Below the pieces are notes generated by a model that did not search any database, was not told the origin of the DNA, and saw only the letters and a list, made by a program, of their open reading frames with translations. From positions 1 through 26,078 of the IMG/VR virus record IMGVR_UViG_3300028025_001003: a DNA stretch of 26,078 nucleotides. One strand, written 5' to 3'. The stretch's first letter is position 1. Every line of letters starts with the position of its first letter. The translations under genes and the position numbers were made by a program. The DNA is from a virus. Shown piece after piece: positions 4,113 through 25,831 of the stretch.

Positions 4113-4146
4113 GATCCTCCTCTTGAATCTCTGGGGTATTTCCCCA
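4113..4146 (-). promoter_or_regulatory. Leader element copy 1: hairpin plus TTCAAGAGGAGGA box
   Basis: On the minus strand a hairpin TGGGG-AAATA-CCCCA (4132-4146) is followed after 4 nt by TTCAAGAGGAGGA (4115-4127), then ATG at 4108. The 17 nt at 4113-4129 are identical to copy 2. A TTGCAATGG motif lies about 31 nt upstream of the hairpin, at about 4177-4185, and could be a -35 region. The gap 4109-4215 otherwise holds no convincing gene, only a 22-codon frame without a ribosome binding site. Confidence 0.65.
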
Positions 4147-4215
4147 TGAAAGAAACTTACAGTGCAGCCCACACCCATTGCAAGTATTTGTTTTGCACCT
4201 TTGCCAGCACGGGAA

Positions 4216-4929
4216 TCAGCGAACCCCCAGATCGTCTGGCTGGTACTCAAACTTGACCTTGCCCGACTCTCGTAACTGATCGGTCATCGCCCAATCAACC
4301 TTGTACCCCCACGACTTAGATGTATCGGTGTATCCATTTATGAATGACCAATCCATTCGCACACCCCACCGCTTCTCTATCACTGGTTTCAATGTTGTGT
4401 AGAAGGTACGACCGTGCGATCCTTCATTATCTCTGTGACGAGATCCAACTACAGCGTGACACAATTCGTGCGCAAGTGTTTCCCATTCAGTAGCACCACC
4501 ACGACTACGACGTGAGATTCGCACGAGTACTGTCCAACCATCCCACAGACCAGACACGCCACCATTTCTTGAATACACCAACTTGATCGGTGGGCGTTTG
4601 CGTGTAGTTCCATTCGGAAAGAACAATGCCCAGATGCGATCCGCTTCTTTCTCAAAGATTCGTTGGCGTTGCGCTTCTCTTTTCTTTCTTTCCTTTAACG
4701 GTTGTAGTTTTGTTGCAGTGCGCTCACGCTTCACCTTGTTCTGTTCTTTGATAACAGCACTACGCTGCTCTCGTTTCTTTTCTAGTGACGGTGCAACTCT
4801 CTCAACTAGTTTCCCAGATTTAGATGAACATGGCAGACAATATCTGCGCACATCATTCTTTCGTGGTTTCGTTGGTGCAAGTAATCCATGATCACAAATT
4901 GCACACTTCCATCTGACTTGCTTACTCAT
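4216..4929 (-). CDS. SprT-like zinc metalloprotease with N-terminal zinc ribbon
   Basis: The 237-residue protein has an N-terminal C9-x2-C12 ... C31-x2-C34 zinc ribbon. A long, very basic helical linker follows (about 45-100, rich in K, R and E). The catalytic core is ETLAHELCHAVVG with H154, E155 and H158 (HExxH), and a third likely ligand is H172 in SHGRTFY. This arrangement matches SprT/Spartan-like proteases, which in cells cut proteins crosslinked to DNA. The basic linker and ribbon would suit DNA binding. The role in the phage is inferred and could be clearing proteins from DNA or attacking a host factor. It stands alone behind its own leader (copy 2) and is followed by a 109-nt gap with copy 1. 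Confidence 0.8.
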   Translation of the reverse strand: MSKQVRWKCAICDHGLLAPTKPRKNDVRRYCLPCSSKSGKLVERVAPSLEKKREQRSAVIKEQNKVKRERTATKLQPLKERKKREAQRQRIFEKEADRIWALFFPNGTTRKRPPIKLVYSRNGGVSGLWDGWTVLVRISRRSRGGATEWETLAHELCHAVVGSRHRDNEGSHGRTFYTTLKPVIEKRWGVRMDWSFINGYTDTSKSWGYKVDWAMTDQLRESGKVKFEYQPDDLGVR

Positions 4930-4932
4930 GTT

Positions 4933-4967
4933 GATCCTCCTCTTGAATCAATCAGTTTGTAACTGAT
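4933..4967 (-). promoter_or_regulatory. Leader element copy 2: hairpin plus TTCAAGAGGAGGA box
   Basis: A perfect 7-bp inverted repeat ATCAGTTTGTAACTGAT (4951-4967) lies 3 nt upstream, on the minus strand, of GATTCAAGAGGAGGATC (4933-4949). ATG 4929 follows 3 nt later. A TAAAAT hexamer 6 nt upstream of the hairpin could be a -10 box, which would put the hairpin at the very 5' end of the transcript. A TTGCAA motif is also present just upstream. Confidence 0.65.
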
Positions 4968-5167
4968 ACATACATTTTATCATGTTGCAAATCACATGAA
5001 ATCAAAAAGTGCGCAAAACAGAAAGTTCGCCCTTACGGTTACTCGCTCAAAAAAAATCTTAAAAATATTTTCAACACTTTTTGGGAGTAACCCCATCTCG
5101 TACTAGGAGACGGGGTTACTCAACCAATTTGTTGCGCAACGGAGAAGGAGAACATCACGCAACTTGA
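4968..5167 (-). other. Intergenic region with 15-bp hairpin and AT-rich tract
   Basis: This roughly 200-nt stretch holds no credible gene. It contains GAGTAACCCCATCTC (5085-5099) and GAGACGGGGTTACTC (5107-5121), a 15-bp stem with a 7-nt loop. The single non-Watson-Crick position is a G-U pair only when transcribed from the minus strand, which suggests selection as minus-strand RNA, probably a terminator for the late operon ending at 5168. There is no immediate U-run; a run of eight T on the minus strand comes about 27 nt further on, within an AT-rich tract (5049-5082). A 10-bp palindrome GTTGCGCAAC (5131-5140) lies on the other side. Confidence 0.55.
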
Positions 5168-5434
5168 TCAGGCTAGATGTTCGGATGCATCCAGTCCACT
5201 GCCTAACACTCGCATTGATTGAACCATCCCAACTGGAACAGATAACACGCAATCCAACTGGTCGTAACTATTCATTGACTGACTCAACACGATGTGATCT
5301 GGTTTCGCTTCAGGCAACAAAATGCCACACGAAACAACTACACAAGGGTTCTCACTGATCTCATCTTTTTCAATCCATGTTGTTGTGTCTGCGTGTGCAT
5401 CATGCCAAACGATCTCCACAAAAGTTGCCACCAC
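5168..5434 (-). CDS. Hypothetical protein, 88 aa
   Basis: It begins with GTG 5434 immediately after the phosphoesterase stop (TGAGTG), with AAGGGTGGTGA upstream as ribosome binding site. The layout is W-H-D-A near the start, a central VVVSCGILLPE strand, DHIVLSQS, and a C-terminal SVPVGMVQSMRVLG. This resembles a common class of short phage proteins with a conserved small beta fold and no known function. It is the last gene of the operon before the hairpin at 5085-5121. Its function cannot be stated. Confidence 0.65.
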   Translation of the reverse strand: MVATFVEIVWHDAHADTTTWIEKDEISENPCVVVSCGILLPEAKPDHIVLSQSMNSYDQLDCVLSVPVGMVQSMRVLGSGLDASEHLA

Positions 5435-6496
5435 TCACCACCCTTCCAACTTCCTATCGGCACAGAATACTGGTGCTTGGATAGTTATGTTTCTTTCGGG
5501 TGTAACAATCGCTAATGCTTGTTGCGGTTGCTCAAAGCCGAAGCCCATCAGCATTGCGTATTCGTCATAACCTTTCATACTTCCGTTCACGATCATTGAA
5601 GGGGTGGAAATATATTGATGCCAGTGACCGAGCCATAAGGTTTGGAATGATTTCCCTGTCACCATGTATCGCTGGTGTTTCCGTGCTCTCATCCTCATGA
5701 TCGGCGGATAGATCCCACCGATACCACCACCACCTGAAACCTGATCCCCGTGCGTTATCAGATGACCATGCTCATAGATATTGATTAGTGCATCTGCAGA
5801 TTCAGGGATCGTGAAGGTGACTCGCTTGTCTTTGCTGAATGTTCTTTCAACCATCTTGGCAAGTAACCAATCAAAGTTTGTTTTGACTCTCTGCTTCATT
5901 CTCGGTTTGCGTGTAGTACGACCATGATTACCCACTACCGATACGACATGGCACTTCTTGAACTCTGTGGTCAGCAATTCAATCGCACCTGACAACTGTT
6001 CAGCCCAGAACAAAAGTGAGCCGATCATCGTGTCCTCGTTAGTGAGGGCTAGTTCCTCGTGGATATCTCCAGAGAAAATGTCGCCACCGAGGATGATCAC
6101 CACGCCGTCATAGTTCACACCTGATAGATAGTGGCGAGAAAGTTTGATGACATTCTGTGCCCACTTCTCTAATCGCATCACAGCAATCTGACGGTTGTAG
6201 GCGTTTAGTCCTTCCATCTCCTCTGGATTAACTACTTCGTCAAAGTGTGTATCTGACAACATGACTACAAGAGTTGCAGCATGAGCCTTCGGTTTCGCTG
6301 GTGCGAGCCATATAGGAGGCTGAACTGCCAGACCATCCACCTGATCCACAAACGAAAGTGCCTTTTCTAACTCCTCAAGTTTTGTTTGCAGCCGAACATT
6401 CTGGTTGGCATAACTGTCACGCTGCTTGCGCATACGCAGTAACTCACCACTGTTCTCTACTTCTAACGCATCATTGATCTGATCACCTAAACCCAT
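5435..6496 (-). CDS. Calcineurin-like metallophosphoesterase
   Basis: The 353-residue protein carries the full metallophosphoesterase motif set: D82-x-H84 (SDTHF), G-G-D139, G-N-H191 (GNHGR), H249-G-D (THGDQV) and G-H291-x-H293 (GHWHQY). These residues hold two divalent metal ions for phosphodiester hydrolysis. The N-terminal 15-48 region (LRMRKQRDSYANQNVRLQTK) is a predicted coiled coil that may allow dimer formation. SbcD/Mre11-type nucleases are in the same superfamily, so a DNA substrate is plausible but unproven. ATG 6496 overlaps the preceding stop (TGATG) with GAGGGAAGGTG upstream. It is coupled to a small helix-turn-helix gene and sits at the end of the late operon. Confidence 0.88.
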   Translation of the reverse strand: MGLGDQINDALEVENSGELLRMRKQRDSYANQNVRLQTKLEELEKALSFVDQVDGLAVQPPIWLAPAKPKAHAATLVVMLSDTHFDEVVNPEEMEGLNAYNRQIAVMRLEKWAQNVIKLSRHYLSGVNYDGVVIILGGDIFSGDIHEELALTNEDTMIGSLLFWAEQLSGAIELLTTEFKKCHVVSVVGNHGRTTRKPRMKQRVKTNFDWLLAKMVERTFSKDKRVTFTIPESADALINIYEHGHLITHGDQVSGGGGIGGIYPPIMRMRARKHQRYMVTGKSFQTLWLGHWHQYISTPSMIVNGSMKGYDEYAMLMGFGFEQPQQALAIVTPERNITIQAPVFCADRKLEGW

Positions 6497-6726
6497 CACA
6501 CACCTTCCCTCATACGCCAGCGAATAATCGCAGTGCGTGTCACATTAACGCCGTTATCATTCAAGACTTGAGCCAACACTGACGCAGAAATCGTTGCGTT
6601 GTGCAGAGCGCACACCAAGTCGGTCTTGTCCTCTCCCTGCATTGACTGTATCGCCAGATCAACTGATGACCTTTTCCCTCCAGTATTAACTGGCGTTGCC
6701 TCTATCTGCTTGAGTAACTTTCCCAT
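6496..6726 (-). CDS. Small helix-turn-helix protein, 76 aa
   Basis: ATG 6726 follows AGAAGGTGAG. The C-terminal half (ISASVLAQVLNDNGVNVTRT followed by AIIRWRMREGV) has the shape of a helix-turn-helix with a basic recognition helix. The N-terminus is basic. The gene overlaps the upstream membrane protein by 41 nt and the phosphoesterase start by 1 nt. A stable HTH plus phosphoesterase pair suggests that this protein may guide the enzyme to DNA; that is inference. It could instead regulate late transcription. Confidence 0.65.
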   Translation of the reverse strand: MGKLLKQIEATPVNTGGKRSSVDLAIQSMQGEDKTDLVCALHNATISASVLAQVLNDNGVNVTRTAIIRWRMREGV

Positions 6727-6952
6727 TGCTCTCACCTTCTCTGTGATCCTGAATATGTTTATCTAACTTGTCGTCCACTTTATTCAAGCCCTTGTAGATC
6801 ATCTTTAGTTGCATCTGCACTACTGCATGATCCTCACGGTTCTCCTTCCGTGCCTCTTTGGTCTCTTTCTTAAATGATTGCATGAATCCAGCCACAATGC
6901 CACCGACCGTTGTGATACAAGCGACAACTACTGCAGCGATCCCCATATCCAT
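6686..6952 (-). CDS. DUF2746-like membrane protein (probable lysis accessory)
   Basis: The 88-residue protein has one N-terminal transmembrane helix (IAAVVVACITTVGGIVAGFM, residues 5-24). A highly charged coiled-coil-like stretch follows, with NREDHAVVQMQLKMIYKGL and KVDDKLDKHIQDH. A single N-terminal helix plus R-x-D-H and K-L-D-x-H-I-x-x-H fits the DUF2746 family of actinobacteriophages, which often lies next to holins and endolysins. Its neighbours here are exactly that: the endolysin directly upstream with no gap. It overlaps the next gene by 41 nt. The precise role (holin, antiholin or spanin-like) is not known. Confidence 0.72.
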   Translation of the reverse strand: MDMGIAAVVVACITTVGGIVAGFMQSFKKETKEARKENREDHAVVQMQLKMIYKGLNKVDDKLDKHIQDHREGESNGKVTQADRGNAS

Positions 6953-7459
6953 CTATGCACCAACGACTACTTGCTCTGGCGGATTCTGTGCGAATACAGC
7001 CTTAATCTGTTCAGATGACTTCTTGCCATCCACTTCAACATGGAACCAATCGCCGTTAGGTGCACCATGAACTGTCTCCTTTGTGTACTTTTGCCATGCC
7101 ATATCTCTATCGCACTTAGATGCACGACCGTGTGGCGCAGGAAAATAATCAATGATCATCTCAATCCCTAAAGCGTCAGCGTGTTTGACCAGATAGTCCA
7201 TTGCACTCATCGCATACTTGCGACCACCCTTAGCGACACCACGCTTCCCATCACCCATGTTTCGCCATGAGATATCGGCTGCACGACCCGTAGCGTGAAC
7301 GGACAAAGATTCTTTGCCACGCATATTGCGAACACCCCACGAACCATTGTTCCACAACGCAGGCGAATAAGCCTTAAATAGTTCTCGCATCAAAGCGGTG
7401 AGTTGTGGATGCTCTCCTACTGCAGCCCCATCCTTGTTACCAGTGTACGGGCGTTTCAC
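6953..7459 (-). CDS. Endolysin: M15/VanY-type peptidoglycan peptidase
   Basis: The 168-residue protein shows the LAS-peptidase zinc site: H55 and D62 in SVHATGRAADISW, and H140 with E142 in DWFHVEVD. The catalytic aspartate or glutamate lies just before the last histidine in this family. Such enzymes cut peptide stems or cross-links of peptidoglycan. There is no signal peptide and no obvious C-terminal wall-binding repeat, so release probably depends on the holins encoded directly upstream. Its ATG overlaps the holin stop (ATGA). At 168 residues it is a single-domain enzyme, shorter than modular actinophage lysins. Confidence 0.85.
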   Translation of the reverse strand: MKRPYTGNKDGAAVGEHPQLTALMRELFKAYSPALWNNGSWGVRNMRGKESLSVHATGRAADISWRNMGDGKRGVAKGGRKYAMSAMDYLVKHADALGIEMIIDYFPAPHGRASKCDRDMAWQKYTKETVHGAPNGDWFHVEVDGKKSSEQIKAVFAQNPPEQVVVGA

Positions 7460-7716
7460 TTTGCTGCCTTCTTGGCTGCAATCTTTTTAGGTGTAGCACC
7501 GAACGCTGCATCAATTTCATCGGCGGTAAGTTTTCCATCCACACTTGCACGAGCGAGAGATTCAACGACCTTGAATACGGACACTGCTCCAGCCAATGCT
7601 GCAGCCTTCCAGATTTCTAATTCGGGGGCGATAACTGATGCACCTGTAATCACACCCAACGCATTAGTGAGAAACAACGCAACAATTCTGCCTGTGACAT
7701 CTTGTACCTTTTTCAT
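7456..7716 (-). CDS. Holin-like membrane protein, 86 aa
   Basis: ATG 7716 (M-K-K-V-Q-D) lies about 10 nt downstream of TAAGGAAAGG. Two hydrophobic segments (residues 10-29 and 34-52) surround a short turn (APELEIW), and the tail is alanine- and lysine-rich (TPKKIAAKKAAK), a normal holin design. Immediate overlap with the endolysin gene supports the role of forming membrane lesions at lysis. A longer frame from 7848 would pass through the small membrane gene in another phase and is not supported. Confidence 0.75.
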   Translation of the reverse strand: MKKVQDVTGRIVALFLTNALGVITGASVIAPELEIWKAAALAGAVSVFKVVESLARASVDGKLTADEIDAAFGATPKKIAAKKAAK

Positions 7717-7883
7717 TCTGGGTCGCCTTTCCTTAACATTGTTGCCACGAAGTGTACTAGCACCGTGAGACAAGTAATCCAGAGAGCCTGTCGCAAGGTA
7801 GTTCCAGAGAGAGTGAGCAACACTAAACCTGTGCCAGCCCATACCCATGCATTCTCTATTAGGTAATCATGGATTCGTTTCAT
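7713..7883 (-). CDS. Small two-helix membrane protein, 56 aa (possible second holin)
   Basis: ATG 7883 overlaps the stop of the PA14-protein gene (ATGA) and the stop overlaps the next ATG (ATGA), so the gene exactly fills the gap between them. The product starts MKRIHDYLIENAW. It has hydrophobic stretches at about 13-26 (VWAGTGLVLLTL) and 33-50 (ALWITCLTVLVHFVATML), then ends KGDPE. The size, topology and position directly before a holin and endolysin suggest a second holin or antiholin. No sequence family is recognised. Confidence 0.72.
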   Translation of the reverse strand: MKRIHDYLIENAWVWAGTGLVLLTLSGTTLRQALWITCLTVLVHFVATMLRKGDPE

Positions 7884-9277
7884 GTGCGCCTCGTGGAAAC
7901 TGGAGAAGGTAAAGCGACCAGAATTGTAGTGCCTGCGATAATCGTGCGCCGTACAGCAACATTCACTGCAGATCCAGTAGGAACATATGTTGCGAAACCA
8001 TCATTGCCAAAAATGTTGATTGACTCCTCAAAGACTTCCTTGACTTCATCAGAAACGCTTGGGTCGTTTAATGCGTCAGCGATAACGGCTGCCATTGATT
8101 CTGATAGTTGAGTTTCCTCTACCTGCTCAAAAAGTTGTTGTGCTTGTTCAGGGGTTACGGCTGAAAGGATCTCGGGTGAGGCGACCAGTTGTTCAGCCTG
8201 TTCTGATGTGATCTCACTATTTAGAATTGTGTCCACAATTTCACCGATCTGTTCTGGGGTCGCTTCCGATAAGGCGGTCAGCACTTCCTCAAACTGTTCA
8301 CTAGTTAGGGGTTCATCAGGGGAAAAGAAAGTTGTCGGGGTAACTTCCACACTGGTTGAGGTTTCCGAAGGCTCTGGGAGGCTTACAGTGCTGTCTGACG
8401 GGATCATAGGCACAGTCGTTGCAGGATCAGTAGTGACCACTTCAACTGGTTCAGGCTGTGTAGTCGTAGTTTCTATCGGCTCTGGTTCTGTAGTCTGAAC
8501 AGATGTATTTGGCTCTGGGGTTGGTAGCGGTATTGGCAGGGGTATTGGGTCTGGCTCTCTTGGGGCTGTCGTGGTTGTTTCAACAGATAGAGAAGTGGGA
8601 TTCGTAGATGAGGTTGTTTGGGGCAATGCTGCTGTTGTTTCTGGTGCTGCCGTTGTACTGGGCTGGTAAATAGTTGAAGTCGTTACTACTAATTCCGTTG
8701 TTGGCGTTTCAAGTATGGAAGTTGTCTCTGGTACTAAAGGCTCACTCGTAAAAAACTCGGGCTGAATAATCTCCCACCCTCTGTCATCAATGTTCCAAGC
8801 CAACATGAAGCAAGTTCCACCGCCGTTCTCGTAAAACCATGCATCCAGATCTCGTGTGCCAGCGTCAATTTGTATCTGCCCTGTATAGGTAGCGGAACAT
8901 CCCTGATCCTCCCAGACCCCGAACTCCTCTGTTCCAATCTTTACTGTTCCACCATCATCCGATGCAATAAAGAACTCAATCGTTTGATGTTCAGGGATCT
9001 GAATGAATCCTGTGTAATGCAGCATGAAGGAATCCCAACCGCACTCACCAAAAAGATTTTGCTCATAATCCCAAGTCGCATTAATAAACGGTTCAATGTT
9101 GCTACCGCACATTGGGTAAGCAAGATCCGACTTCGTTGGTGGTATCTCATCTATCTGATACCCACGAACCAGCAGACCAACCTGCGATGCCTCTGCAGGT
9201 TGTGGTGCAAATAATGCAAACAACGCAACAGGTAGAAAGATCAGCCAGCGACTATGAAATGAGTGCTGCAATCTCAT
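7880..9277 (-). CDS. Secreted PA14-domain protein with Thr/Pro-rich linker and C-terminal hydrophobic segment
   Basis: The 465-residue protein begins with a signal peptide (basic start, then WLIFLPVALFALFAPQPAEA, cleavage likely near residue 31). Residues 32-175 look like a PA14 domain: GLLVRGYQ, WDSFMLHYTGFIQIPE, FFIASDDGGTVKIG, then a W-x-x-N-x-x-G-like end. PA14 domains usually bind carbohydrate. Residues 180-320 are a Thr/Pro/Glu-rich linker of the type seen in exported actinobacterial proteins. A helical region with repeated T-x-E-Q-A motifs follows, and the end is hydrophobic (TIIAGTTILVALP) plus RRT. It overlaps the upstream gene by 26 nt. Export from the host before lysis is implied; a virion role is less likely but not excluded. 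Confidence 0.8.
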   Translation of the reverse strand: MRLQHSFHSRWLIFLPVALFALFAPQPAEASQVGLLVRGYQIDEIPPTKSDLAYPMCGSNIEPFINATWDYEQNLFGECGWDSFMLHYTGFIQIPEHQTIEFFIASDDGGTVKIGTEEFGVWEDQGCSATYTGQIQIDAGTRDLDAWFYENGGGTCFMLAWNIDDRGWEIIQPEFFTSEPLVPETTSILETPTTELVVTTSTIYQPSTTAAPETTAALPQTTSSTNPTSLSVETTTTAPREPDPIPLPIPLPTPEPNTSVQTTEPEPIETTTTQPEPVEVVTTDPATTVPMIPSDSTVSLPEPSETSTSVEVTPTTFFSPDEPLTSEQFEEVLTALSEATPEQIGEIVDTILNSEITSEQAEQLVASPEILSAVTPEQAQQLFEQVEETQLSESMAAVIADALNDPSVSDEVKEVFEESINIFGNDGFATYVPTGSAVNVAVRRTIIAGTTILVALPSPVSTRRT

Positions 9278-9476
9278 CAGCCGTCAAACCTAACGCTGCA
9301 AGTTTGCCCTCTGCTGACGCTTTCGCTTCAGCCTTCGCTGTCGCTTGTGCTTCACGCTCTGCAAGTTCAACAGCCCACGCTGCTGCATCAGCCTCACGCT
9401 GTGCGACTTCCTCATCCGTCAATTCAACTTCGGTTGTGATGCCTGTTGAACAATCCACTACTAGTTTTGTTGCCAT
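9252..9476 (-). CDS. Small tail-fibre-associated protein, 74 aa
   Basis: ATG 9476 follows AGGAAAATATC. The protein starts with a short beta-like head (KLVVDCSTGITTEVELTDEE). It continues as one long alanine- and glutamate-rich helix and ends LTADEIAALIS. Short proteins of this plan, with a V-D-x-x-T-G head and L-T-x-E-E, commonly sit just after tail-fibre genes and are thought to assist fibre assembly or attachment. No enzyme motif is present. The position directly downstream of three fibre-like genes agrees with this. Confidence 0.65.
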   Translation of the reverse strand: MATKLVVDCSTGITTEVELTDEEVAQREADAAAWAVELAEREAQATAKAEAKASAEGKLAALGLTADEIAALIS

Positions 9477-9485
9477 GATATTTTC

Positions 9486-9983
9486 CTAACTGTTTTTGAT
9501 TCCGTAAAGGGATGCTGATGAATATTGAACAAAGTTTCCTGTGTTGCCTGTGAGAGTAAGTGATGTGATTGCGGAAGTGTCTGACCACAGACCAGCAACA
9601 AAGGTTAAATAAGCACCAGTTGCATTGGTTTCAACCGCAGCGTCAGCAGAATATGATTTGTTGGCACTTCCAGCATAGTTCGGGATGTACAGTTCGGCAT
9701 TTCCGAATGTGCTTGCGGTGAATGAGGATGGTGTTGAAGCACCAACATATCTTGCCAATGTTCCAGTCTGCACAGTACTTCCATCACCAATCAAGAACCT
9801 TGCAGAGAAGTTAGATGTAGAGCCGTTTAGTGATAACAGTATTTGTGTGGCTGTATCGCTTGCCCTCAAAGACATAACAACTTTGATGTCCGTGTAAGTC
9901 TGTGGGATTGATGCGAAAGCAATGCTGGCTGCACCACCAGAACCAACCGTGATGGTCTCAATAAGTTGATATGTGACAGCCAT
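9486..9983 (-). CDS. Tail tip/fibre-like protein, LYGIK family copy 3, 165 aa
   Basis: ATG 9983 (M-A-V-T-Y) overlaps the previous stop (TAATG). The product is threonine-, serine- and alanine-rich and beta-strand-like, with few charged residues. Markers shared with the next two genes upstream are an IPQTYTDIKVV strand, a LSLNGSTSNF segment, a GLWSDTSAITSLTLT segment, and the C-terminal LYGIKNS. This looks like one beta-sandwich exposed on the virion, probably binding host surface sugars or decorating the tail tip. An earlier in-frame start would overlap the upstream gene by about 100 nt and is not supported. Confidence 0.7.
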   Translation of the reverse strand: MAVTYQLIETITVGSGGAASIAFASIPQTYTDIKVVMSLRASDTATQILLSLNGSTSNFSARFLIGDGSTVQTGTLARYVGASTPSSFTASTFGNAELYIPNYAGSANKSYSADAAVETNATGAYLTFVAGLWSDTSAITSLTLTGNTGNFVQYSSASLYGIKNS

Positions 9984-10465
9984 TATGCAGCCTTGATTCC
10001 GTACAAGGTGAATGTGCAACCAGAAGAAAATGAACCAGCATTTTGAATAACAGTTATTGAAGTAACTGCGCTTGTATTTCTCCAAAGACCAACAATCGCC
10101 CGAACATCAGCAGCGCCTTTATTTGAACGAGACAGGTTTGTTTTGTATGTGGTTGCGTTTGAGTAGTTCATGATTTGCGCTATGTGATTCCCCTGTGCGG
10201 TGCTACTAAATCCGATGCGTATGCTGGTTTGGCTGGTTGCCCTGCTACTAAATACTCCGCTTCCTGAGTCTGCCCCCAGTTGTGTCCAACTGTAATTGCT
10301 TCCAGTATCACCATTGAATTGCATCAAAATTGGTTCATCAACAGTACTTGTTCCTTGCACCACCAACACCAAATCGGTGTATGTTGCGGAGATTGCTGAC
10401 AAGGTAACGGAAGCCTGCGCTGACCCTAGCGTTTGTGTTGTGATTGGTTCGTATGTTGCTGGCAT
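9983..10465 (-). CDS. Tail tip/fibre-like protein, LYGIK family copy 2, 160 aa
   Basis: It starts M-P-A-T-Y-E-P-I and ends LYGIKAA. The internal order matches its neighbours: ISATYTDLVLV, then MQFNGDTGSNYSW, then a GLWRNTSAVTSITV stretch. The mid-region with YKTNLSRSNKG replaces the equivalent part of the other copies. All three genes therefore look like descendants of one beta-sandwich gene. A role in adsorption or tail-tip decoration is inferred from position between the minor tail genes and the lysis cassette. Confidence 0.7.
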   Translation of the reverse strand: MPATYEPITTQTLGSAQASVTLSAISATYTDLVLVVQGTSTVDEPILMQFNGDTGSNYSWTQLGADSGSGVFSSRATSQTSIRIGFSSTAQGNHIAQIMNYSNATTYKTNLSRSNKGAADVRAIVGLWRNTSAVTSITVIQNAGSFSSGCTFTLYGIKAA

Positions 10466-10467
10466 AA

Positions 10468-11100: not shown

Positions 11101-11108
11101 GGTTAAGC

Positions 11109-11471: not shown

Positions 11472-11481
11472 GAGTTTTCCT

Positions 11482-11751: not shown

Positions 11752-11772
11752 AATGCCTCCGAGTGTAACACT

Positions 11773-13050: not shown

Positions 13051-13051
13051 G

Positions 13052-16973: not shown

Positions 16974-16975
16974 GA

Positions 16976-17143: not shown

Positions 17144-17150
17144 GATGTTC

Positions 17151-18160: not shown

Positions 18161-18163
18161 TGA

Positions 18164-18367: not shown

Positions 18368-18387
18368 AGTTGTTGATCATACACGGT

Positions 18388-18433: not shown

Positions 18434-18463
18434 CGGCTCTAATCCGAAATGTAGTTATCGGCT

Positions 18464-19783
18464 TTAGAAGGTTGGTGTTACCAATCCCGTGCCGCCAATC
18501 AATGCAAATGCATTTGGGTAACGGTTAGCAGTAAATGCACTGTAGCCGTACACAATCATCTGAACATCAAGTTCAGCACCCTTTGGTTGCTCAAAGCGCA
18601 ACATCATTGGTGAACCATCGCCCTGTTCCCAGAGGTGTGCCTCTTGGGTGTTACCGATGATGATTACATCCTCGTTTGCTCCAGCACCGTTGGTGGTGAT
18701 CACATTGGCGTCAGTAATTACTGGCAAGCCTGCAATCGTGTAGCCCGAGTTGCCATAGACAACTGAACCTTGTCCAACACCCACAGCATTGAACGCACCG
18801 TTTCCAACTGGTACTGCCAGTGGGCGGTTGGTGCTGTCAAGTGCTGCAAGGATGAAAGCCAAACGGCGAGGGTGCATCAGGATGAAGTTTGGTCCACCGA
18901 AGTAGTTGGTCTGAATACGCTGTACTGCATCCATCAATTTTGGATAGAGTTCCGCAACAGTTGGCGAAGCATCAGTGTAGGTGACAACCTGTGAGATTGT
19001 ATTCGTCAATGATGTTGCGCTGGTCGTTACGAACAACGAATCCAAGTTGGTGTTGTATGCAGAAACGAGATCTGCCATCACCAATGAATCAATTCCCGTG
19101 CCACGCTCAAGAGCCTGACGGGAAACATTCTGCTGACCAGCAACAGTGACAACGGAAACATCTAGTTTCGTGTCATCCATGTTGGTCTCCTGAACTGCTG
19201 CACCTTCAGTTTGTACTGCGGTTGCAGATCCAGTCGTGACCTTGCTGATGCTGATAGTCAAACCTGATGCTGGAAGTTCATGCTTGCGAGCAACATCCAA
19301 GAACGGGCGACCTGCACGAGCAAACGGTGCTGCCAAATCGGTAAGGAATTGTGGAACTACGAGACCAGCAAAGTTTGCACTGGTCACATCACGGCGTTCA
19401 ATTTTTTCCTCTTGCATGTGGCGTGCGAGACGCTCTTTTGCAGAGAAGTCATTGTTGAACTGTGCAGCGTAAGCATCAGCAACGAACGAAACTTCAGCCT
19501 GTGGGCTGTAGGTGCGTGCTTCTGACTTAACTACTGCTGGTGATGCAACTGCATCAAACTTCTTTTCTTTGCGAAGTTCTGCTGCTTCTGCTGAACGCTT
19601 TTCAAGTTCGCTATGGGTAGCGATTTGTGAATCAAGTGAGCGAACCTCATCCAATGCTGCAGCGATTTCTGCATCTTGTTCTGGGGTAAGTTCACGAGCC
19701 TCTGCTTGTGCTGCTTCAACGATTGACTCTGCCTTTACAAGTGCAGCGTCACGCTTTTCTGTAAGTGATTTACTGAATGACAT
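18464..19783 (-). CDS. Major capsid protein, HK97 fold, 439 aa
   Basis: The N-terminal about 100 residues are an alanine- and glutamate-rich helix (VEAAQAEARELTPEQDAEIA, then a long coiled region), the delta scaffold usually removed by the protease. The core includes RAGRPFLDVARKHELPASG, TEGAAVQETNMDDTKLDVSV, SRQALERGTGIDSLVMADL, and FILMHPRRLAFILAALDS, all typical of HK97-type capsid proteins. A strong ribosome binding site GGAGGTCAT precedes ATG 19783. The adjacent upstream protease gene and the following hairpin terminator mark it as the most highly expressed gene of the late region. Confidence 0.93.
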   Translation of the reverse strand: MSFSKSLTEKRDAALVKAESIVEAAQAEARELTPEQDAEIAAALDEVRSLDSQIATHSELEKRSAEAAELRKEKKFDAVASPAVVKSEARTYSPQAEVSFVADAYAAQFNNDFSAKERLARHMQEEKIERRDVTSANFAGLVVPQFLTDLAAPFARAGRPFLDVARKHELPASGLTISISKVTTGSATAVQTEGAAVQETNMDDTKLDVSVVTVAGQQNVSRQALERGTGIDSLVMADLVSAYNTNLDSLFVTTSATSLTNTISQVVTYTDASPTVAELYPKLMDAVQRIQTNYFGGPNFILMHPRRLAFILAALDSTNRPLAVPVGNGAFNAVGVGQGSVVYGNSGYTIAGLPVITDANVITTNGAGANEDVIIIGNTQEAHLWEQGDGSPMMLRFEQPKGAELDVQMIVYGYSAFTANRYPNAFALIGGTGLVTPTF

Positions 19784-19784
19784 A

Positions 19785-19841
19785 TGACCTCCAAGATCAT
19801 CTGATTATGTGTATGTATTTCCTTTCAGTGTTAGGAGGTCA
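19785..19841 (-). promoter_or_regulatory. Possible hairpin covering the capsid ribosome binding site
   Basis: TGACCTCC (19785-19792) and GGAGGTCA (19834-19841) are perfect 8-nt complements separated by 41 nt. On the minus strand the downstream arm, GGAGGTCA, is the ribosome binding site of the capsid gene, ending 1 nt before its ATG. Pairing would hide that site. The arms could also be coincidental remnants of two ribosome-binding-like sequences. Confidence 0.45.
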
Positions 19842-19862
19842 GTGACTAATTAAGTCGGCTGT

Positions 19863-20459
19863 CTAACGGCTGCGAAGTTTCTGCAATGCGACCTGATTTT
19901 TACGCAGGCTCAAAGTAGAAACTGGTGCAACGATAACAGGCTCATTTCGTTTGCGCAACTCGGCAACGGTCTGCTCATATGCAGGGAAGGTAACAACGCT
20001 GACATCAAATAGTTGAACCTCACGCAACTCACGAACCGAACGGTCATTGTTCCAGTTGTCCTTGACTGTTCTGAATGCAAAACTCATCTGCGAAAGATCG
20101 CCACGCTTCATAGCGGACATGATTCGTGCTGCATCAGGATTCATCGGATCTAGTTCAGCCTCAACACGCAAGCCTCGCTCATCCTCCTCAAGTGCAAGAG
20201 TGCCAGACTTAGAACGAGCCAACGGTACGCCCTCGTGATCAATTAGCAGGCGCACATCTGCACCATCATTCAATGTTTTACTGAACGCACCACGCTTAAC
20301 AAACTCGGTGAAACCCATGTACTCCGAAGGGGAATCCCAGACGGCTGCATAACCTACGAGTGTTTTGCCTTCATTCTCTGCACGAACCTCAAGATTAGAA
20401 TACGCAATGCTGCGCTTCTCATCCACTTCTGTTGCTATCCACTGCACGAGTTCGCTCAT
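19863..20459 (-). CDS. HK97-type prohead protease (S78 family), 198 aa
   Basis: Typical segments are LVGYAAVWDSPSEYMGFTEF, VKRGAFSKTLNDG, VRLLIDHEGVPLARSKSGTL, SAMKRGDLSQMSFAF and LFDVSVVTFPAYEQT. The likely catalytic histidine is H75 in LIDHEG and the serine is S126 in SQMSFAF. It cleaves the capsid protein's N-terminal scaffold domain during head maturation. It sits directly before the capsid gene. Length is normal for the family. Confidence 0.9.
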   Translation of the reverse strand: MSELVQWIATEVDEKRSIAYSNLEVRAENEGKTLVGYAAVWDSPSEYMGFTEFVKRGAFSKTLNDGADVRLLIDHEGVPLARSKSGTLALEEDERGLRVEAELDPMNPDAARIMSAMKRGDLSQMSFAFRTVKDNWNNDRSVRELREVQLFDVSVVTFPAYEQTVAELRKRNEPVIVAPVSTLSLRKNQVALQKLRSR

Positions 20460-20501
20460 AGTTCCACCTTACTTGTCTTATATAAATCTTGCCACAGAAT
20501 G

Positions 20502-21791
20502 TTACTCGTTGTTCTCTGAATACTTTGGGTGACCAGAGTTGAGCAGATCATTGTCTTGGACATAGTTAGCGTTCTCTGGTTTTCCATTAGCAGACAAATA
20601 TAGAAACGCATTGACCCGAGCCATAGCCCACTGCCCTCTAGTCATGTTTGGTCTGTGCGAAGTAGAGAACGCCCCAGCCCCACGCCTATAAACAGACTTC
20701 AATGCCCCGACCCGAACCTTTGTCCAGTCTGGCTTGTCATCCTCTTTCATCTTGGCGTTGTGCTCATCGGCTTTGTTCTGTAATGCTTTTTCCGTTGATT
20801 CGTTCAGGGTAATTCCACCGCCCTGATCTTTTGCCGAGCCTGCAGGATTCTTTTCGCTACCGAATATTTGATCCTTCGCTGGTGCTGCAGCCCGTTCACC
20901 ATCCAGCCTCTCAACAATACGATACGCATATTCTTGTGCCCTACGAGCCGATGCTTTACTAGCACCACCACCCCAGAGCAACATTGCGACAAGACCTGCA
21001 GTGATTTCATCACCCTGCACCGCATCCAGATCATCAATATGTCGGGCTATCCACGCACCGATCTTTCTCCACTTTGCTTCGGTCACTTCACCTGAAGCCA
21101 TTTTTCTTGCATCCTCAACGGTTTGCGGCACGAGACCGTCACCCGATAAACCTTGCTCATGTAAAGCAAGACCACGCTTCGCTGATGCCCTCATAAATGC
21201 TGGTGCAGAAAGATCAATCGCACGGAGTTCTGATTCCTCATACTCCTCCTCTGGTTCAATCATTGGTGCAGAATCCTCTGACTTGATTCCGAGCAGTTCC
21301 TCATTGATCACCCAGAGTTTGCAAATACCATTAGGCGATATGCGACCTTCAACTACTTCGCAAGCCTGACCGCCTTCATAAAGGACACAGTTGCCACAGA
21401 TCAAACCACTGTCAGCGAAAGGTGACTCGGCAACATAATGTGCACCATTAGCACCATCACCTTGATTGAACATCCCGAACTGTTCAGCAAGTTTTTCGTA
21501 GAACTCATACATCGCAAACTGTCTGCCGCTCAATCCTTTTTCGTCCATCTCCGATAAGCCTTCAAGCATTTCATCGGTGTCATCCTCTAATTCAACTTCC
21601 ATAAGTTGTCTTTGATTTCCAACTTCGCCTGCTGGTTCTAAACCTTCAGCAAGAGACTGTGCGACCATACGATCTATTGCATCTTGCTTTGTGGTGTAGC
21701 ACTCAAGCGTTGTTGCTGATCCATCTGATTCAATTTTTACTGCAGCCCAATTAGAGCAGTCGGATTGGTTCTGCGAAATTCCGTATGGCAT
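20502..21791 (-). CDS. Multidomain head-region protein with HiPIP-like cysteine cluster, 429 aa
   Basis: Several parts are visible. Residues 10-50 hold DCSNWAAVKIESDG ... LECYTTKQDAI, a small cysteine-pair segment also seen next to prohead proteases. Residues 130-160 have C132-x2-C135-x8-C144-x12-C157 (LICGNCVLYEGGQACEVVEG), the spacing of high-potential iron-sulfur proteins, which bind a [4Fe-4S] cluster. Residues 195-260 include PAFMRASAKRGLALHEQG and KWRKIGAWIARHIDDL. The C-terminus holds VYRRGAGAFSTSHRPNMTRG and WAMARVNAFLYL. It lies between portal and protease, so it may be a minor head or internal virion protein. Whether an iron-sulfur cluster is really bound is inference. Confidence 0.65.
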   Translation of the reverse strand: MPYGISQNQSDCSNWAAVKIESDGSATTLECYTTKQDAIDRMVAQSLAEGLEPAGEVGNQRQLMEVELEDDTDEMLEGLSEMDEKGLSGRQFAMYEFYEKLAEQFGMFNQGDGANGAHYVAESPFADSGLICGNCVLYEGGQACEVVEGRISPNGICKLWVINEELLGIKSEDSAPMIEPEEEYEESELRAIDLSAPAFMRASAKRGLALHEQGLSGDGLVPQTVEDARKMASGEVTEAKWRKIGAWIARHIDDLDAVQGDEITAGLVAMLLWGGGASKASARRAQEYAYRIVERLDGERAAAPAKDQIFGSEKNPAGSAKDQGGGITLNESTEKALQNKADEHNAKMKEDDKPDWTKVRVGALKSVYRRGAGAFSTSHRPNMTRGQWAMARVNAFLYLSANGKPENANYVQDNDLLNSGHPKYSENNE

Positions 21792-22054
21792 TAGTCTGAA
21801 TCAATCGTGATGATGCGGATAGTTTCGGTTTGACCTGAAGCGCAGATACCCCAGAGTCCATCACCAACACCGAGACCACCTTGAATTGGTGCAGTGTGTT
21901 TCACAATAGGAAAACCTTGATCTGATGTTACATTAGATCCACCAATATAAACAGTGTTGTTGCCTTCAATCTGAACATATACAGGGCGATTGATATTGTC
22001 CACTGGAACAAGATTCACAACGGTATCGGTGACATTAACTTTGTATGCTTTCAT
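21791..22054 (-). CDS. Hypothetical beta-rich head-region protein, 87 aa
   Basis: ATG 22054 follows AAGAGGTAAAAC and the stop overlaps the next ATG (TAATG). The protein is beta-strand-rich: VNLVPVDNINRPVYVQIEGN, NTVYIGGSNVTSDQGFPI, LWGICASGQTETIRII. Short proteins of this plan with V-Y-I-G-G are common in head gene clusters, and may be decoration or stabilising proteins. No proof of role. Confidence 0.62.
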   Translation of the reverse strand: MKAYKVNVTDTVVNLVPVDNINRPVYVQIEGNNTVYIGGSNVTSDQGFPIVKHTAPIQGGLGVGDGLWGICASGQTETIRIITIDSD

Positions 22055-22057
22055 GTT

Positions 22058-23254
22058 TTACCTCTTAGGTGGTTCTGCATCTGTTCCGAGTGTTGGCAAG
22101 TCTCCGCCCTCAACGCCAGCCATAGGTGCGCCAGCGACACCGAGAACAAACTGATCGCCACCTTCATACGGTTCACGATTCTCAATTTCACGAGCCTCGT
22201 TAGGTGTCATAGTTCCAGACATGATCTGTGACTGTTGCGCACGAACACGAGTCATGAGGTCAGCACGCAAAAACTCCTCTGGGTTGAAACGAACAGACTG
22301 TAACGGTGGCAACATTTCACTGAACGCAGATTCCAAACGGCGAACCCATCCGAGCAGTGTGTACTTGAAAAACGCTGAACCTAATGCCTCAATGTTTTGA
22401 TATGTCTGTGAATCTCCACCCGTTCCAAGAATCAGATGCAATGGGATTCGGTACACACGAGCAATGTCACGGATGATTGACTCTTTATGTTCCAGCATTT
22501 GCATATCGGCTGCACTCGTAGTGATGCTTCTCCACTTCAGACCACCTTGCAATACGGCGGGCTTGCGATGCTTGTAATGCGATTCAACCCAGTTGTCACG
22601 GATCTGTCGTGCTTGTTCAATAGTTAGTGACGAATCAGTTTCTAATACTGATGATGGTGTTGCACCTTCACCATAGAACTGTGCGAGGAAACGATCCATC
22701 GCTAGACCCATGCCGACAGTGTTGCGCATAGTTTCTAACGGGCTGATGCCACGCAACTGGTTAGGCAGAATCGCCCAATGAATTGCACGAACATCCTTAC
22801 TGCTGTACTGAACTTTTCCTAGATCATAAATCAATTCGCCTGTATCGGTAATCGCTATACCTTTGACTGCGTGGGGATGAATATTGCGCATCTCAACGGG
22901 AAGTCCATCTGCGCCTCGTGGTGCATAAATGTAGGCGTTGCCATGTAACGCAAGAGTAAGCATTGTTTGATGCACGAACTCAAACATATTTTGGTGGTCG
23001 TTAGGTTGCTCAAAGACGGAAGGTGTTGCGAGTCGTACAAGTCTGTCTGCCTTTTTCTCTACCAATTCAACTGGCATCGCTGCGATGGAATCAGCAAGGA
23101 TAGTGACTGAAGCAAGTACTGCGCTATGTGCAACGGCTGTTATCTCCGTAACAATTTCACCTGACCAGTTGTTAAACAACGGGCGAGCAGTTATCTGATA
23201 CGGGTCAATGCTTGTAGGCAGTGCTCGCTGTTCAGATTTTTTCCACAAACTCAT
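22058..23254 (-). CDS. Portal protein, HK97 family, 398 aa
   Basis: Typical portal segments are SVTILADSIAAMPVELVEKK near residue 50, LTLALHGNAYIYAPRG, GISPLETMRNTVGMGLAMDR, FYGEGATPSSVLETDSS, DIARVYRIPLHLILGTGG, and SAFFKYTLLGWVRRLESAF. The protein forms the ring at the head vertex through which DNA is packaged and ejected. The gene overlaps the small membrane gene (ATGA) and is followed after 3 nt by a short head gene. The end is flexible and proline- and glycine-rich. Confidence 0.92.
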   Translation of the reverse strand: MSLWKKSEQRALPTSIDPYQITARPLFNNWSGEIVTEITAVAHSAVLASVTILADSIAAMPVELVEKKADRLVRLATPSVFEQPNDHQNMFEFVHQTMLTLALHGNAYIYAPRGADGLPVEMRNIHPHAVKGIAITDTGELIYDLGKVQYSSKDVRAIHWAILPNQLRGISPLETMRNTVGMGLAMDRFLAQFYGEGATPSSVLETDSSLTIEQARQIRDNWVESHYKHRKPAVLQGGLKWRSITTSAADMQMLEHKESIIRDIARVYRIPLHLILGTGGDSQTYQNIEALGSAFFKYTLLGWVRRLESAFSEMLPPLQSVRFNPEEFLRADLMTRVRAQQSQIMSGTMTPNEAREIENREPYEGGDQFVLGVAGAPMAGVEGGDLPTLGTDAEPPKR

Positions 23255-23394
23255 GCTGCCAAGCCTCCACCGATTACCAAGAGAACGCCTAGAACAATAA
23301 CACTGATCGGAACACTAAACGAGGCGATACCGACAACGATACAAATAGCACCAACTAATTCAACTGCTGTAGTGATTACTTCTCTTAGTTTCAT
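23251..23394 (-). CDS. Small two-helix membrane protein between terminase and portal, 47 aa
   Basis: ATG 23394 overlaps the large terminase stop and its TGA overlaps the portal ATG (both ATGA), filling the gap exactly. The product starts MKLREVITTAVELVGAICIV, continues with VGIASFSVP and a second hydrophobic run (ISVIVLGVLLVIGGGLAA). Two transmembrane segments are clear. Small membrane proteins at this location occur in several actinobacterial siphoviruses without known function. It might affect membrane docking of packaging complexes, but this is speculation. Confidence 0.75.
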   Translation of the reverse strand: MKLREVITTAVELVGAICIVVGIASFSVPISVIVLGVLLVIGGGLAA

Positions 23395-24899
23395 GACCAG
23401 ATATCCAATACTGACGGGGTGATTGTTTCTACGGGTTTAGTTGTTGCACGATCTAATGCCATAACCATAGCGATGCACGAGTCTATCTTTCTCCTTGATT
23501 TTCCTTTAGAGAGTGTCCAGCCTTTATCGCTCATGCGTTGCGCTGCAGATAAAACCTGATCCGTGAAAGTTGGTGACCCATCATGGGCAACCTTTTTGGA
23601 AACGATCATTTCGTAGGCATTACCGCAGGCAGGGATCATTCGTGATGCACTCTGGGGAAAGGTCACGAGGTTCATTCCTTCATCTGATAGTGCTTCGGCT
23701 GATCTCTCAAAGAACGCAGGATCGTACACAAACTCCCGAACCTCATAACTGTTATGGATCTCTCGTAAATATGCTTCTACGCCAGCGATATCAATGCCAT
23801 CCACTTCTGGATTCCAAATCTTTGCCCTAACGACACACCTTTCCCCTTGAGGTTGTGCGATACAGATTCCAATCGTGTCACGCTTCAATGCCATGTCAAT
23901 CCCAACCCACACTGGAAGGTCTGGATCTAGTTGTATCTCTGGTGCAACGCACTGTGCCCACGCTCCCTCTGGAAGCCACGACTCCTGTGAACGCACCCAC
24001 TGATTCAACCTCCAACGGCGAACAGATGTTTCACTTGACTGCTTCACGGCTGCATCAAAATCCTCGTGCGATAACAGACCTTCAGCGAGGTTCGGGTTAG
24101 CGATCAGTCTTGCCTTCCTGTCTTTCAGATCACAATCGGCTGGTGCTTCCCACCAATAGAACCCAAAAGATTCGTCTTGCACTTCTCCTGCAGCAACTTG
24201 TTTGCCGTACTGATACATCTGTCCTGCAGGGGAGTCAAGATCGTAGCCTGCTGTCGTGATACTGATGCTGATTGGTTCAATACGGTTGCCTGAACCTAAC
24301 TGCATCTGGTCTAGGAGGTCACTGTTAGATTGCCCCCAGATTTCGTCAATCAAAGAAACGGATGGGTTAAGTCCTGCGAGACCTTTCACTTCACTAGAGA
24401 GAACACGGAACACCGAACCGAATCGTGGCATCTCAATCGCATCCCGATATATCTTTGCCTCGCTGTTCAACAACGGGCTGTTCTGAATCTGTTGCTTTGC
24501 TTCATTGAAAATAATTCTTGCCTGCTGACGGTCATTCGCTACCGCATAGATCTCTCCGCCTGCTTCTCCAGCGATCATTGAATACACACCGAGCGCACTC
24601 ATCATCAATGACTTGCCGTTCTTTCTAGGCAGACCCACTAGCGCACGGCGATATCTCAAACGCATAGTCGTATCGTTGCGTTCCAACAGTCCACGCATCA
24701 ACCACTTCTGCCAGTCGGTGAACTGTAGAGGAAGTCCAGCCTTGAAACCTTTCAACACTTGGAAGTGTGCTTCGGCGAACTCTATAAGTTCATCACCGTC
24801 AGTCGTTCTATATTTTCTTGGCGTATAGAACGCAGGCTGCCATTTACTTAGAGGCTGAACGCTTTTCGGCAATGCGCCTGTGGAGGTCACTGAACTCAT
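23391..24899 (-). CDS. terL: Terminase large subunit, 502 aa
   Basis: The ATPase half has Walker A V88-G-L-P-R-K-N-G-K-S97 and Walker B S182-L-I-D-E186, which power DNA translocation into the head. The nuclease half has D335 (WVGIDMALKRDT), D393 (FVYDPAFFE) and D473 (RRKIDSCIAMVMALDRA), the acidic residues of the RNase-H-like nuclease that cuts the concatemer. Length and order are normal for HK97-type terminases. It overlaps the small subunit gene by 56 nt. The packaging type (cos, pac or other) cannot be told from sequence alone here. Confidence 0.94.
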   Translation of the reverse strand: MSSVTSTGALPKSVQPLSKWQPAFYTPRKYRTTDGDELIEFAEAHFQVLKGFKAGLPLQFTDWQKWLMRGLLERNDTTMRLRYRRALVGLPRKNGKSLMMSALGVYSMIAGEAGGEIYAVANDRQQARIIFNEAKQQIQNSPLLNSEAKIYRDAIEMPRFGSVFRVLSSEVKGLAGLNPSVSLIDEIWGQSNSDLLDQMQLGSGNRIEPISISITTAGYDLDSPAGQMYQYGKQVAAGEVQDESFGFYWWEAPADCDLKDRKARLIANPNLAEGLLSHEDFDAAVKQSSETSVRRWRLNQWVRSQESWLPEGAWAQCVAPEIQLDPDLPVWVGIDMALKRDTIGICIAQPQGERCVVRAKIWNPEVDGIDIAGVEAYLREIHNSYEVREFVYDPAFFERSAEALSDEGMNLVTFPQSASRMIPACGNAYEMIVSKKVAHDGSPTFTDQVLSAAQRMSDKGWTLSKGKSRRKIDSCIAMVMALDRATTKPVETITPSVLDIWS

Positions 24900-25323
24900 G
24901 CTGTTTCACTTCCCCTTGTCCTAACAATCCTCGCTCTGATGGAGTGAATCCTATCTGACCCAACAGCGTGATGATCTGACGATCAATTTCTCTCAACGCT
25001 CTACGGTCACGCCAACTATCTGGTCGTTCCTGTAATCGGAAACGCAAGCGAGTTCTCTCCTCTGTCGCTTCACATAACATCAAAACTAGTTCGGTGTCCA
25101 TCTGTTGTTTCAACCATCCAGCACCTGACACCCAGACCTGTTGCCATAAACGCAAACCCTGTGAACCTAAAGGTCGGTGAGGTTCAGGAACATGAGAAGT
25201 CGGCAACGCAACTACATCAGCAACGGGTGAAGGCTTAGGCAACTTGCGACCAGATGGATTGCCGATGCGCTGTTTGCGTTCAATCGGTTTCCTGTTATGT
25301 CCTCCGCTACCTTTTCCGCCCAT
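24844..25323 (-). CDS. terS: Terminase small subunit (P27-like), 159 aa
   Basis: It begins MGGKGSGGHNRKPIERKQRI, a glycine-, arginine- and lysine-rich tail, followed by a proline-rich stretch. It continues with helices including LRLWQQVWVSGAGWLKQQ, TELVLMLCEATEERTRLR, and LLGQIGFTPSERGLL. The segment G-F-T-P-S-E-R-x-x-L is typical for P27-type small subunits, which recognise the viral DNA end or pac site. Direct overlap with the large subunit supports the call. AAGGAACAAATAAAC precedes ATG 25323, and the gene starts 42 nt past the terminator hairpin, so a promoter must lie in or close before that gap. Confidence 0.85.
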   Translation of the reverse strand: MGGKGSGGHNRKPIERKQRIGNPSGRKLPKPSPVADVVALPTSHVPEPHRPLGSQGLRLWQQVWVSGAGWLKQQMDTELVLMLCEATEERTRLRFRLQERPDSWRDRRALREIDRQIITLLGQIGFTPSERGLLGQGEVKQHEFSDLHRRIAEKRSASK

Positions 25324-25364
25324 GTTTATTTGTTCCTTGTGTGTTTCATTAGATCTCTAGTGTT

Positions 25365-25414
25365 GCATAAAAGAAATGGGGTCTGCCTCCCCGATCAGTG
25401 AGAGACAGACCCCA
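25365..25414 (-). terminator. Rho-independent terminator before the terminase operon
   Basis: TGGGGTCTGCCTC (25377-25389) pairs with GAGACAGACCCCA (25402-25414): a 13-bp stem with one G-U pair when transcribed from the minus strand. The minus strand continues TTTCTTTTATG, a U-rich tail. It closes the small operon ending at 25431 and insulates it from the late operon. Confidence 0.88.
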
Positions 25415-25430
25415 CGAGGGGTAATCCTTT

Positions 25431-25598
25431 TTACTTAGACAGTGCAGCGCACTCTTTAACGAACTCATCCATCTCACGGGAAGCGAATCTTGCTGCTTCT
25501 GTTTCATCCATCCCTTGACTAGTGGCTTGTTCTATCAAAGCGTTCCAGAGTGTGTACAACTGGATCAAAGTTTCTTTCTGTTGCTTCTTGGTAATCAT
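25431..25598 (-). CDS. Hypothetical helical protein, 55 aa
   Basis: ATG 25598 overlaps the upstream stop (TGATG) and the frame ends just before the terminator. The product starts MITKKQQKETLIQLYTLWNA, continues LIEQATSQGMDETEAARFAS and ends in EMDEFVKECAALSK. It looks like two or three amphipathic helices with mixed charge and one cysteine, and no membrane segment. No family is recognised. The first 40 nt of this gene are part of the inverted duplication whose other arm lies at the end of the window. Confidence 0.68.
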   Translation of the reverse strand: MITKKQQKETLIQLYTLWNALIEQATSQGMDETEAARFASREMDEFVKECAALSK

Positions 25599-25618
25599 CA
25601 CAGCACCACCAACGACTG
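25559..25618 (+). repeat. Left arm of a 51-59 nt inverted duplication (partner 26020-26078)
   Basis: Positions 25559-25609 are the exact reverse complement of 26028-26078, and with one base inserted (25610) the match extends to 25618/26020. The left arm contains the end of one gene and the first 14 codons of the next in their normal context. The copy at 26020-26078 stops at the window end. Confidence 0.9.
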
Positions 25619-25792
25619 AGCAATTTCACCATCAGTGACCAAAAGATTTGCGTAGTAAACCTTCGTACCCTTCGGGCGCATCACTCCAGCAATATGTGTC
25701 CAGCCAAGTTGTGACCTGAAACTATCTGAAGCCTCTAGGACTTCTCTAACGATCCACTCTTGACCTTTGTAGTTGAACTTTTGTCCTTGCAT
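25598..25792 (-). CDS. Hypothetical beta-rich small protein, 64 aa
   Basis: ATG 25792 lies 7 nt behind the conserved TTCAAGAGGAGGA leader box; an earlier GTG (25825) in frame is inside the leader hairpin and is not supported. The product begins MQGQKFNYKGQEWIVREVLE, with strands HIAGVMRPKGTKVYYANLL and an end of AQSLVVL. This looks like a small all-beta fold with no known relative. The gene starts its own unit with the 55-residue gene. Confidence 0.65.
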   Translation of the reverse strand: MQGQKFNYKGQEWIVREVLEASDSFRSQLGWTHIAGVMRPKGTKVYYANLLVTDGEIAQSLVVL

Positions 25793-25799
25793 TTCTATG

Positions 25800-25831
25800 T
25801 CCTCCTCTTGAACATCTGCCCCCACTGGGCA
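25800..25831 (-). promoter_or_regulatory. Leader element copy 3: hairpin plus TTCAAGAGGAGGA box
   Basis: On the minus strand a hairpin TGCCC-AGTGG-GGGCA (25817-25831) is followed after 4 nt by TTCAAGAGGAGGA (25800-25812), then 7 nt to ATG 25792. TTGCAATGG, the same 9-mer as at copy 1, lies 30 nt upstream of the hairpin and could be a -35 region, with TAATAC 16 nt later as a possible -10. Confidence 0.65.

Follow-up and report, generated by a model that had tools for sequence, protein, structure and literature searches.

A leader of two hairpins as a new variant of actinophage start-associated sequences

Start-associated sequences (SAS) were described in 2011 in Cluster K mycobacteriophages, in which the 13-nt sequence GGGATAGGAGCCC is present in multiple copies, mostly in one orientation (Pope et al. 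2011, PMC3203893). Papers of 2020, 2024 and 2025 still describe their role as unclear. Pope et al. remarked on the symmetry of the outer SAS bases and on the conservation of the first base and positions 10-13 without rRNA pairing, and proposed no hairpin (PMC3203893). About half of the SASs are accompanied by an extended SAS (ESAS), which contains a SigA-like promoter (Adephagia paper, PMC11373665) and an inverted repeat. The ESAS repeats are 17 bp long, conserved in sequence and generally do not support RNA pairing (Pope et al., PMC3203893). In Microbacterium Cluster EF phages the SAS is GGGAAAGGACCCC (PMC7302621). None of the published Cluster K and EF descriptions examined proposes a hairpin in the box, and a literature search for Shine-Dalgarno hairpins as phage-wide tags found nothing relevant. 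The present analysis concerns a three-copy leader element found before genes in the IMG/VR virus record IMGVR_UViG_3300028025_001003, positions 1 to 26,078; this whole stretch is called the window below.

The feature is real and richer than first noted, and represents a new variant of the actinophage SAS. Like the Cluster K SAS, its box is located at the ribosome-binding site just before ATG, contains the Shine-Dalgarno sequence and is conserved beyond it; the box is not the Cluster K sequence GGGATAGGAGCCC. An earlier note on this DNA had described a three-copy leader, composed of a variable hairpin and a conserved box. The hairpin (here H1) was retained, while the box itself turned out to be a second hairpin holding the Shine-Dalgarno sequence (H2), which is separable from H1. 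Comparison among relatives and covariation establish, at the level of sequence, H2, H1, the rule that H2 accompanies translation starts and H1 unit starts, and the spacing to the -10 element.

A hairpin around the Shine-Dalgarno sequence

A first scan of viral contigs for the box gave many records with 2-4 copies, and when all 221 box matches were scored loosely for stems, unrelated contigs diluted the result. Relatives were therefore selected by protein similarity, so that selection by the box itself was avoided: 75 loci were fetched via the SprT-like protein of the window and 80 via its terminase protein TerL, 1.57 Mb in total, and the counts given below refer to these. The core 11-mer TCAAGAGGAGG occurs 125 times among them and lies closely before ATG in 124 cases, thus the box is not a product of chance. 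Whole records carry up to 9 copies, nearly all on the same strand, and some fragments carry none.

The H2 stem consists of 2-5 variable outer pairs and the inner pairs U.G and C-G, up to 8 pairs in all, and closes the invariant heptaloop AAGAGGA; half of the Shine-Dalgarno sequence lies in the loop and half in the 3' arm. The flanks of the box pair in the three window copies (ATGT/ACAT, TGAT/ATCA, AGAT/ATCT), and further compensated flanks were found in relatives (AAGT/ACTT, TAGT/ACTA, CAGT/ACTG, TGC/GCA and others). Since these flanking bases pair and change together, the box is a second hairpin. Stems of 5 or more pairs close an AAGAGGA loop 96 times in the relatives, in 95 cases before ATG, while 34 rearranged heptamers of equal composition averaged 1.8 such stems and 0.5 before ATG. 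Of 83 non-redundant sites, 79, 74 and 64 have Watson-Crick bases at outer pairs 1, 2 and 3, respectively, against shuffle maxima of 66, 69 and 49. For 66 distinct sequences, 80.1% of the H2 cells are paired (69.9 ± 1.4 shuffled) and the covariation score is 0.322 (0.172 ± 0.016 shuffled, 0/500), with changes on both sides in 50 cells; sliding the pairing partner lowers the score to 0.103 or less. At some sites the inner pairs UC/GG are replaced by CC/GG and UU/GG.

The stems are weak and narrowly distributed in energy, with a mean of -2.7 and a standard deviation of 1.25 kcal/mol, compared to a standard deviation of 2.5 for random stems of equal length. The classical limit for structure that hinders initiation is about -6 kcal/mol, and since the H2 energies are weaker than this, the stems should not block ribosomes.

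A natural variant is found in the SprT leader of the related locus L241, at about 2442-2463, where the core is short by one base (caagttcaagagaggacttatg).

The upstream hairpin and unit starts

For the analysis of H1, sites were divided by the distance to the stop codon of the preceding gene, a long gap defining unit-leading sites as opposed to internal ones. H1 is present at 64% of the unit-leading sites and 12% of the internal sites, which bears out its connection with unit starts. Shuffled sequences reach only 4%, and arms swapped between sites 15%; pairing is thus maintained while the sequence changes, and the selection on structure argued for in the earlier note is supported. With a single exception among 42 sites, H1 measures 4-9 bp; it is paired and variable in sequence.

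In 30 of the 42 non-redundant sites, H1 is preceded by a -10-like hexamer whose end lies 6-8 nt away. This spacing places the predicted transcription start at or beside the first H1 base, and H1 would accordingly lie at the 5' end of the mRNA. In 27/42 sites H1 and H2 are only 0-1 nt apart. Transcripts predicted in this way have at most 2 unpaired 5' nucleotides in 84% of cases, against 35% in shuffles. Some unit starts are without H1; in a few of these (L357 and L360) the first bases AUC pair with GAU at the start codon and extend H2. The H1 region resembles the ESAS in that a promoter (by motif only here) and an inverted repeat lie upstream of a subset of boxes, and differs from it in its short, variable and paired arms.

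H2 without H1 is mostly what is found before internal genes, therefore the two hairpins are regarded as separate modules. Boxes in related genomes that lack conserved upstream pairing, named in the earlier note as evidence against its leader, do exist, mainly at these internal genes, as predicted from two modules. The SprT gene illustrates this: it has both hairpins in the clade of the window, where it leads a unit, and H2 only in clades where it lies a few nucleotides behind another gene. This comparison separates the roles, associating H2 with translation start and H1 with transcript start.

The three copies in the window and their surroundings

As in the earlier note, the box TTCAAGAGGAGGA is found on the minus strand three times, at 4115-4127, 4935-4947 and 25800-25812; these are its only exact matches in the record. 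Each is preceded by a paired hairpin of different sequence, 3-4 nt from the box. The features, all on the minus strand, are as follows.

Copy 1
4178..4183, minus strand: putative -35 element TTGCAA, from the sequence; a similar stretch lies at the same place in relatives L228 and L092
4154..4159, minus strand: putative -10 element TAAGTT, a weak hexamer, 6 nt before the predicted +1 A4147, in agreement with the family-wide spacing
4132..4146, minus strand: H1, TGGGG-aaata-CCCCA, from sequence and fold
4112..4130, minus strand: H2, AGATTC-AAGAGGA-GGATCT, carrying the Shine-Dalgarno sequence (model match, expectation value E 4e-5)
3845..4108, minus strand: following gene, 87 aa
Copy 2
4974..4979, minus strand: putative extended -10 element TGA TAAAAT, 6 nt before the predicted +1 A4967
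4951..4967, minus strand: H1, ATCAGTT-aca-AACTGAT
4932..4950, minus strand: H2, TGATTC-AAGAGGA-GGATCA (model match, E 1.7e-4)
4216..4929, minus strand: following SprT-like gene, with a weak SprT-like Pfam match below cut-off
Copy 3
25862..25867, minus strand: putative -35 element TTGCAA, from the sequence
25839..25844, minus strand: putative -10 element AATACT, 17 nt from the -35 element and 6 nt before the predicted +1 A25832
25817..25831, minus strand: H1, TGCCC-agtgg-GGGCA
25797..25815, minus strand: H2, ATGTTC-AAGAGGA-GGACAT (model match, E 8e-6)
25598..25792, minus strand: following small gene, ahead of the terminase genes

The 17 nt that the earlier note gave as identical in two copies are GATTCAAGAGGAGGATC, present in copies 1 and 2, and its second shared stretch, TTGCAATGG, is common to copies 1 and 3, at the position of the -35 element. 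The claim that the leader always begins a unit holds for copies 2 and 3 and not for copy 1, which lies about 80 nt after the SprT gene. The promoters proposed here rest on the family-wide fixed spacing, because a strict scan for the sigma-70 consensus called none in either window region holding copies. In copy 2, an extra pair T4951-A4931 would compete with H1. In copy 1, an in-frame ATG at 4147, overlapping the start of H1, gives a frame 13 codons longer; the ATG at 4108 placed by H2 is preferred as start of the gene. A strong terminator-like hairpin is located at 25376-25415 (minus strand), after the small gene downstream of copy 3, so that the unit of copy 3 may be one short transcript preceding the terminase genes.

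On its 26 kb, the window has genes for terminase, tape measure, RecE-like and single-strand annealing proteins, and represents part of a tailed phage genome. Copies 1 and 2 sit in the recombination region and copy 3 before the terminase; the records compared are fragments as well. A WhiB-family gene (1005-1262, minus strand) points to an actinobacterial host, and the phage family is aquatic and probably infects actinobacteria. The closest named TerL is that of Pontimonas phage phiPsal1, with 38% identity to the TerL of the window. Megablast gave no matches of named phages to 25 kb of the window, and the SprT-like protein had no match either, so similarity to named phages gave no name. A host scan with a TerL alignment gave a single contig, in a proteobacterial metagenome-assembled genome, which was not taken as host. 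Against Rfam, the window gave no matches at gathering score.

Possible function and related elements

Each copy would thus be transcribed as a leader RNA of two adjoining hairpins. By a modest preference, H2 is considered a structured ribosome-binding site, while H1 would cap the 5' end and protect the message from decay. The H2 loop would offer its purines, ordered and exposed, to the 3' tail of 16S rRNA, on a stem too weak to block the ribosome. H1 would form at the transcript 5' end where a promoter lies directly upstream, and by leaving almost no unpaired 5' bases could slow decay that depends on the 5' end. Folding in the cell, the positions of transcription start, and the roles of H2 in capturing ribosomes and of H1 in protecting mRNA are what we infer from these patterns.

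Several observations weigh against this interpretation. Outer pair 4 of H2 alone is not above shuffles, the signal residing in pairs 1-3 outside the constant core, and in the outer pairs G.U mismatches are no commoner than A.C. Some sites, e.g. CAACCAAGAGGAGGAAC, have no H2 stem. The shuffle controls overstate significance, the sequences being related. The loop AAGAGGA hardly varies, although AAAGGAG would pair better with the usual anti-Shine-Dalgarno sequence, and this leaves room for a dedicated binding factor.

Such a factor is the basis of the main rival, which we regard as the less probable of the two and still worth serious attention: H2 would be a translational operator, to which a phage or host RNA-binding protein would bind through the AAGAGGA loop, whatever the stem, so as to switch all marked genes in concert, as with CsrA or coat-protein hairpins. 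Sites read by RNA-binding proteins typically look like this, with a constant loop on a stem of free sequence; in addition, G is found at a loop position at which A would improve pairing with the usual anti-Shine-Dalgarno sequence, and a record holds several copies, up to 9. CsrA/RsmE target hairpins, with GGA in a small loop closed by C-G, a variable stem and overlap with the Shine-Dalgarno sequence, are similar to H2, but the AAGAGGA heptaloop is without ANGGA. The T4 RegB sites and gp43 operator are also Shine-Dalgarno-containing elements of early phage mRNA; they differ in that the former are GGAG motifs protected by structure and the latter is confined to one gene. No candidate for the phage protein that the earlier note imagined coordinating the three units was found: a csrA gene was present in none of the 17 incomplete phage records, and DUF3310 was absent from them as well. 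Moreover, loops of the same layout in other phage groups have only the Shine-Dalgarno core in common, which points to the ribosome as reader rather than a protein.

The remaining alternatives are far weaker. HK022 put RNA consists of two nearly touching stem-loops at a phage transcript 5' end, and the 0-1 nt between the hairpins in most sites, at predicted 5' ends, recalls it. Antitermination by a put-like RNA loading onto RNA polymerase is nevertheless very unlikely, because the second hairpin holds the ribosome-binding site, stands alone before internal genes in the position of such a site before ATG, and H1 is missing at some unit starts. A shade less likely again are DNA operators of a phage regulator, the pairing being merely a DNA palindrome, as preferred by Pope et al. 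for the ESAS: the inverted repeats are short and near promoters, but H2 is strand-specific and stands before ATG even deep in units, its near-constant T.G pair makes no DNA palindrome, and the H1 sequence is unconserved. Least credible is the spread by copying of ordinary strong Shine-Dalgarno sequences with stems as by-product, disfavoured already since compensated stem changes around a constant loop are not producible by copying, however good the core as a Shine-Dalgarno sequence and however readily recombination could spread it.

The analogy to Cluster K drawn in the earlier note, of an SAS with unrelated sequence, holds and is closer than supposed, because the SAS has the same layout of stem, 7-nt loop and stem (GGG-ATAGGAG-CCC). 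Three clear compensated stems were found (TCGG/CCGA, GTAC/GTAC, CTGG/CCAG), and of 98 sites from six genomes, 94, 94 and 86 have Watson-Crick bases at pairs 1, 2 and 3, respectively, counts equalled by shuffles in 4, 1 and 0 of 2000. Considered by themselves, the deviating sites are no better paired than shuffled ones (3 fully paired, mean 2.7), so the Cluster K hairpin is a lead and not proven. Its flanks are unrelated to those of H2 and its stems mostly fixed as GGG/CCC, whereas H2 stems vary freely; with E allowed up to 1, three stretches of Cluster K genomes contained no match to the H2 model. The Cluster EF SAS has the layout GGG-N7-CCC (GGG-AAAGGAC-CCC) with a different sequence. In AnnaSerena (L385, 40483) an H1-like hairpin, CCGGGagatgCCCGG (CCGGG-agatg-CCCGG), lies 1 nt before the published SAS; in Hiddenleaf the loop differs. 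Two Cluster EF genomes held no compensated stem variants, and a 6-nt loop can also be drawn.

Sister phages, which share the SprT gene or TerL, have a box of similar design. There the box CCCTGAGGAGGGA folds as CCCU-GAGG-AGGG with the Shine-Dalgarno sequence, precedes ATG in 40/40 cases, and in several copies has an H1-like hairpin upstream (L258-L276 and L326-L373; e.g. L275 at 2623, 2851, 3658 and 9335). In another group, comprising L270, L281, L285 and L286, and with changes in L269, CATCATCG-GAAGGAA-CGACGATG before the SprT-like gene places the Shine-Dalgarno sequence in a 7-nt loop and the start codon within the stem. Phage phiPsal1 (L226) has a start-associated leader repeat of its own, GTGTAGTGGTGTACAGTAGTAATTACCAACCAAGGAGGAACCAAATG, in two copies at about 26395-26460 and 27710-27775, and does not carry the present H2 element in a model search.

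It is proposed tentatively, with somewhat more doubt than belief, that the SAS of several actinophage groups (the family studied here, its CCCTGAGGAGGG sisters, Cluster K and Cluster EF) belong to a single kind of RNA device that recurs among them. A weak hairpin would present the Shine-Dalgarno purines in a small loop, in most groups of seven bases, and tag genes for translation throughout the phage; primary transcripts would carry a further hairpin or a paired 5' end in addition. The covariation found here shows that in one SAS-type element an RNA hairpin encloses the ribosome-binding site. An H2-type hairpin may explain SAS in other phages, and an H2-like layout fits the conserved outer SAS bases, for which rRNA pairing gave Pope et al. 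no explanation. The question can thereby be addressed with simple reporter experiments in Mycobacterium smegmatis or in Microbacterium, and such leaders may serve as small building blocks with which translation and mRNA lifetime in actinobacteria could be adjusted.
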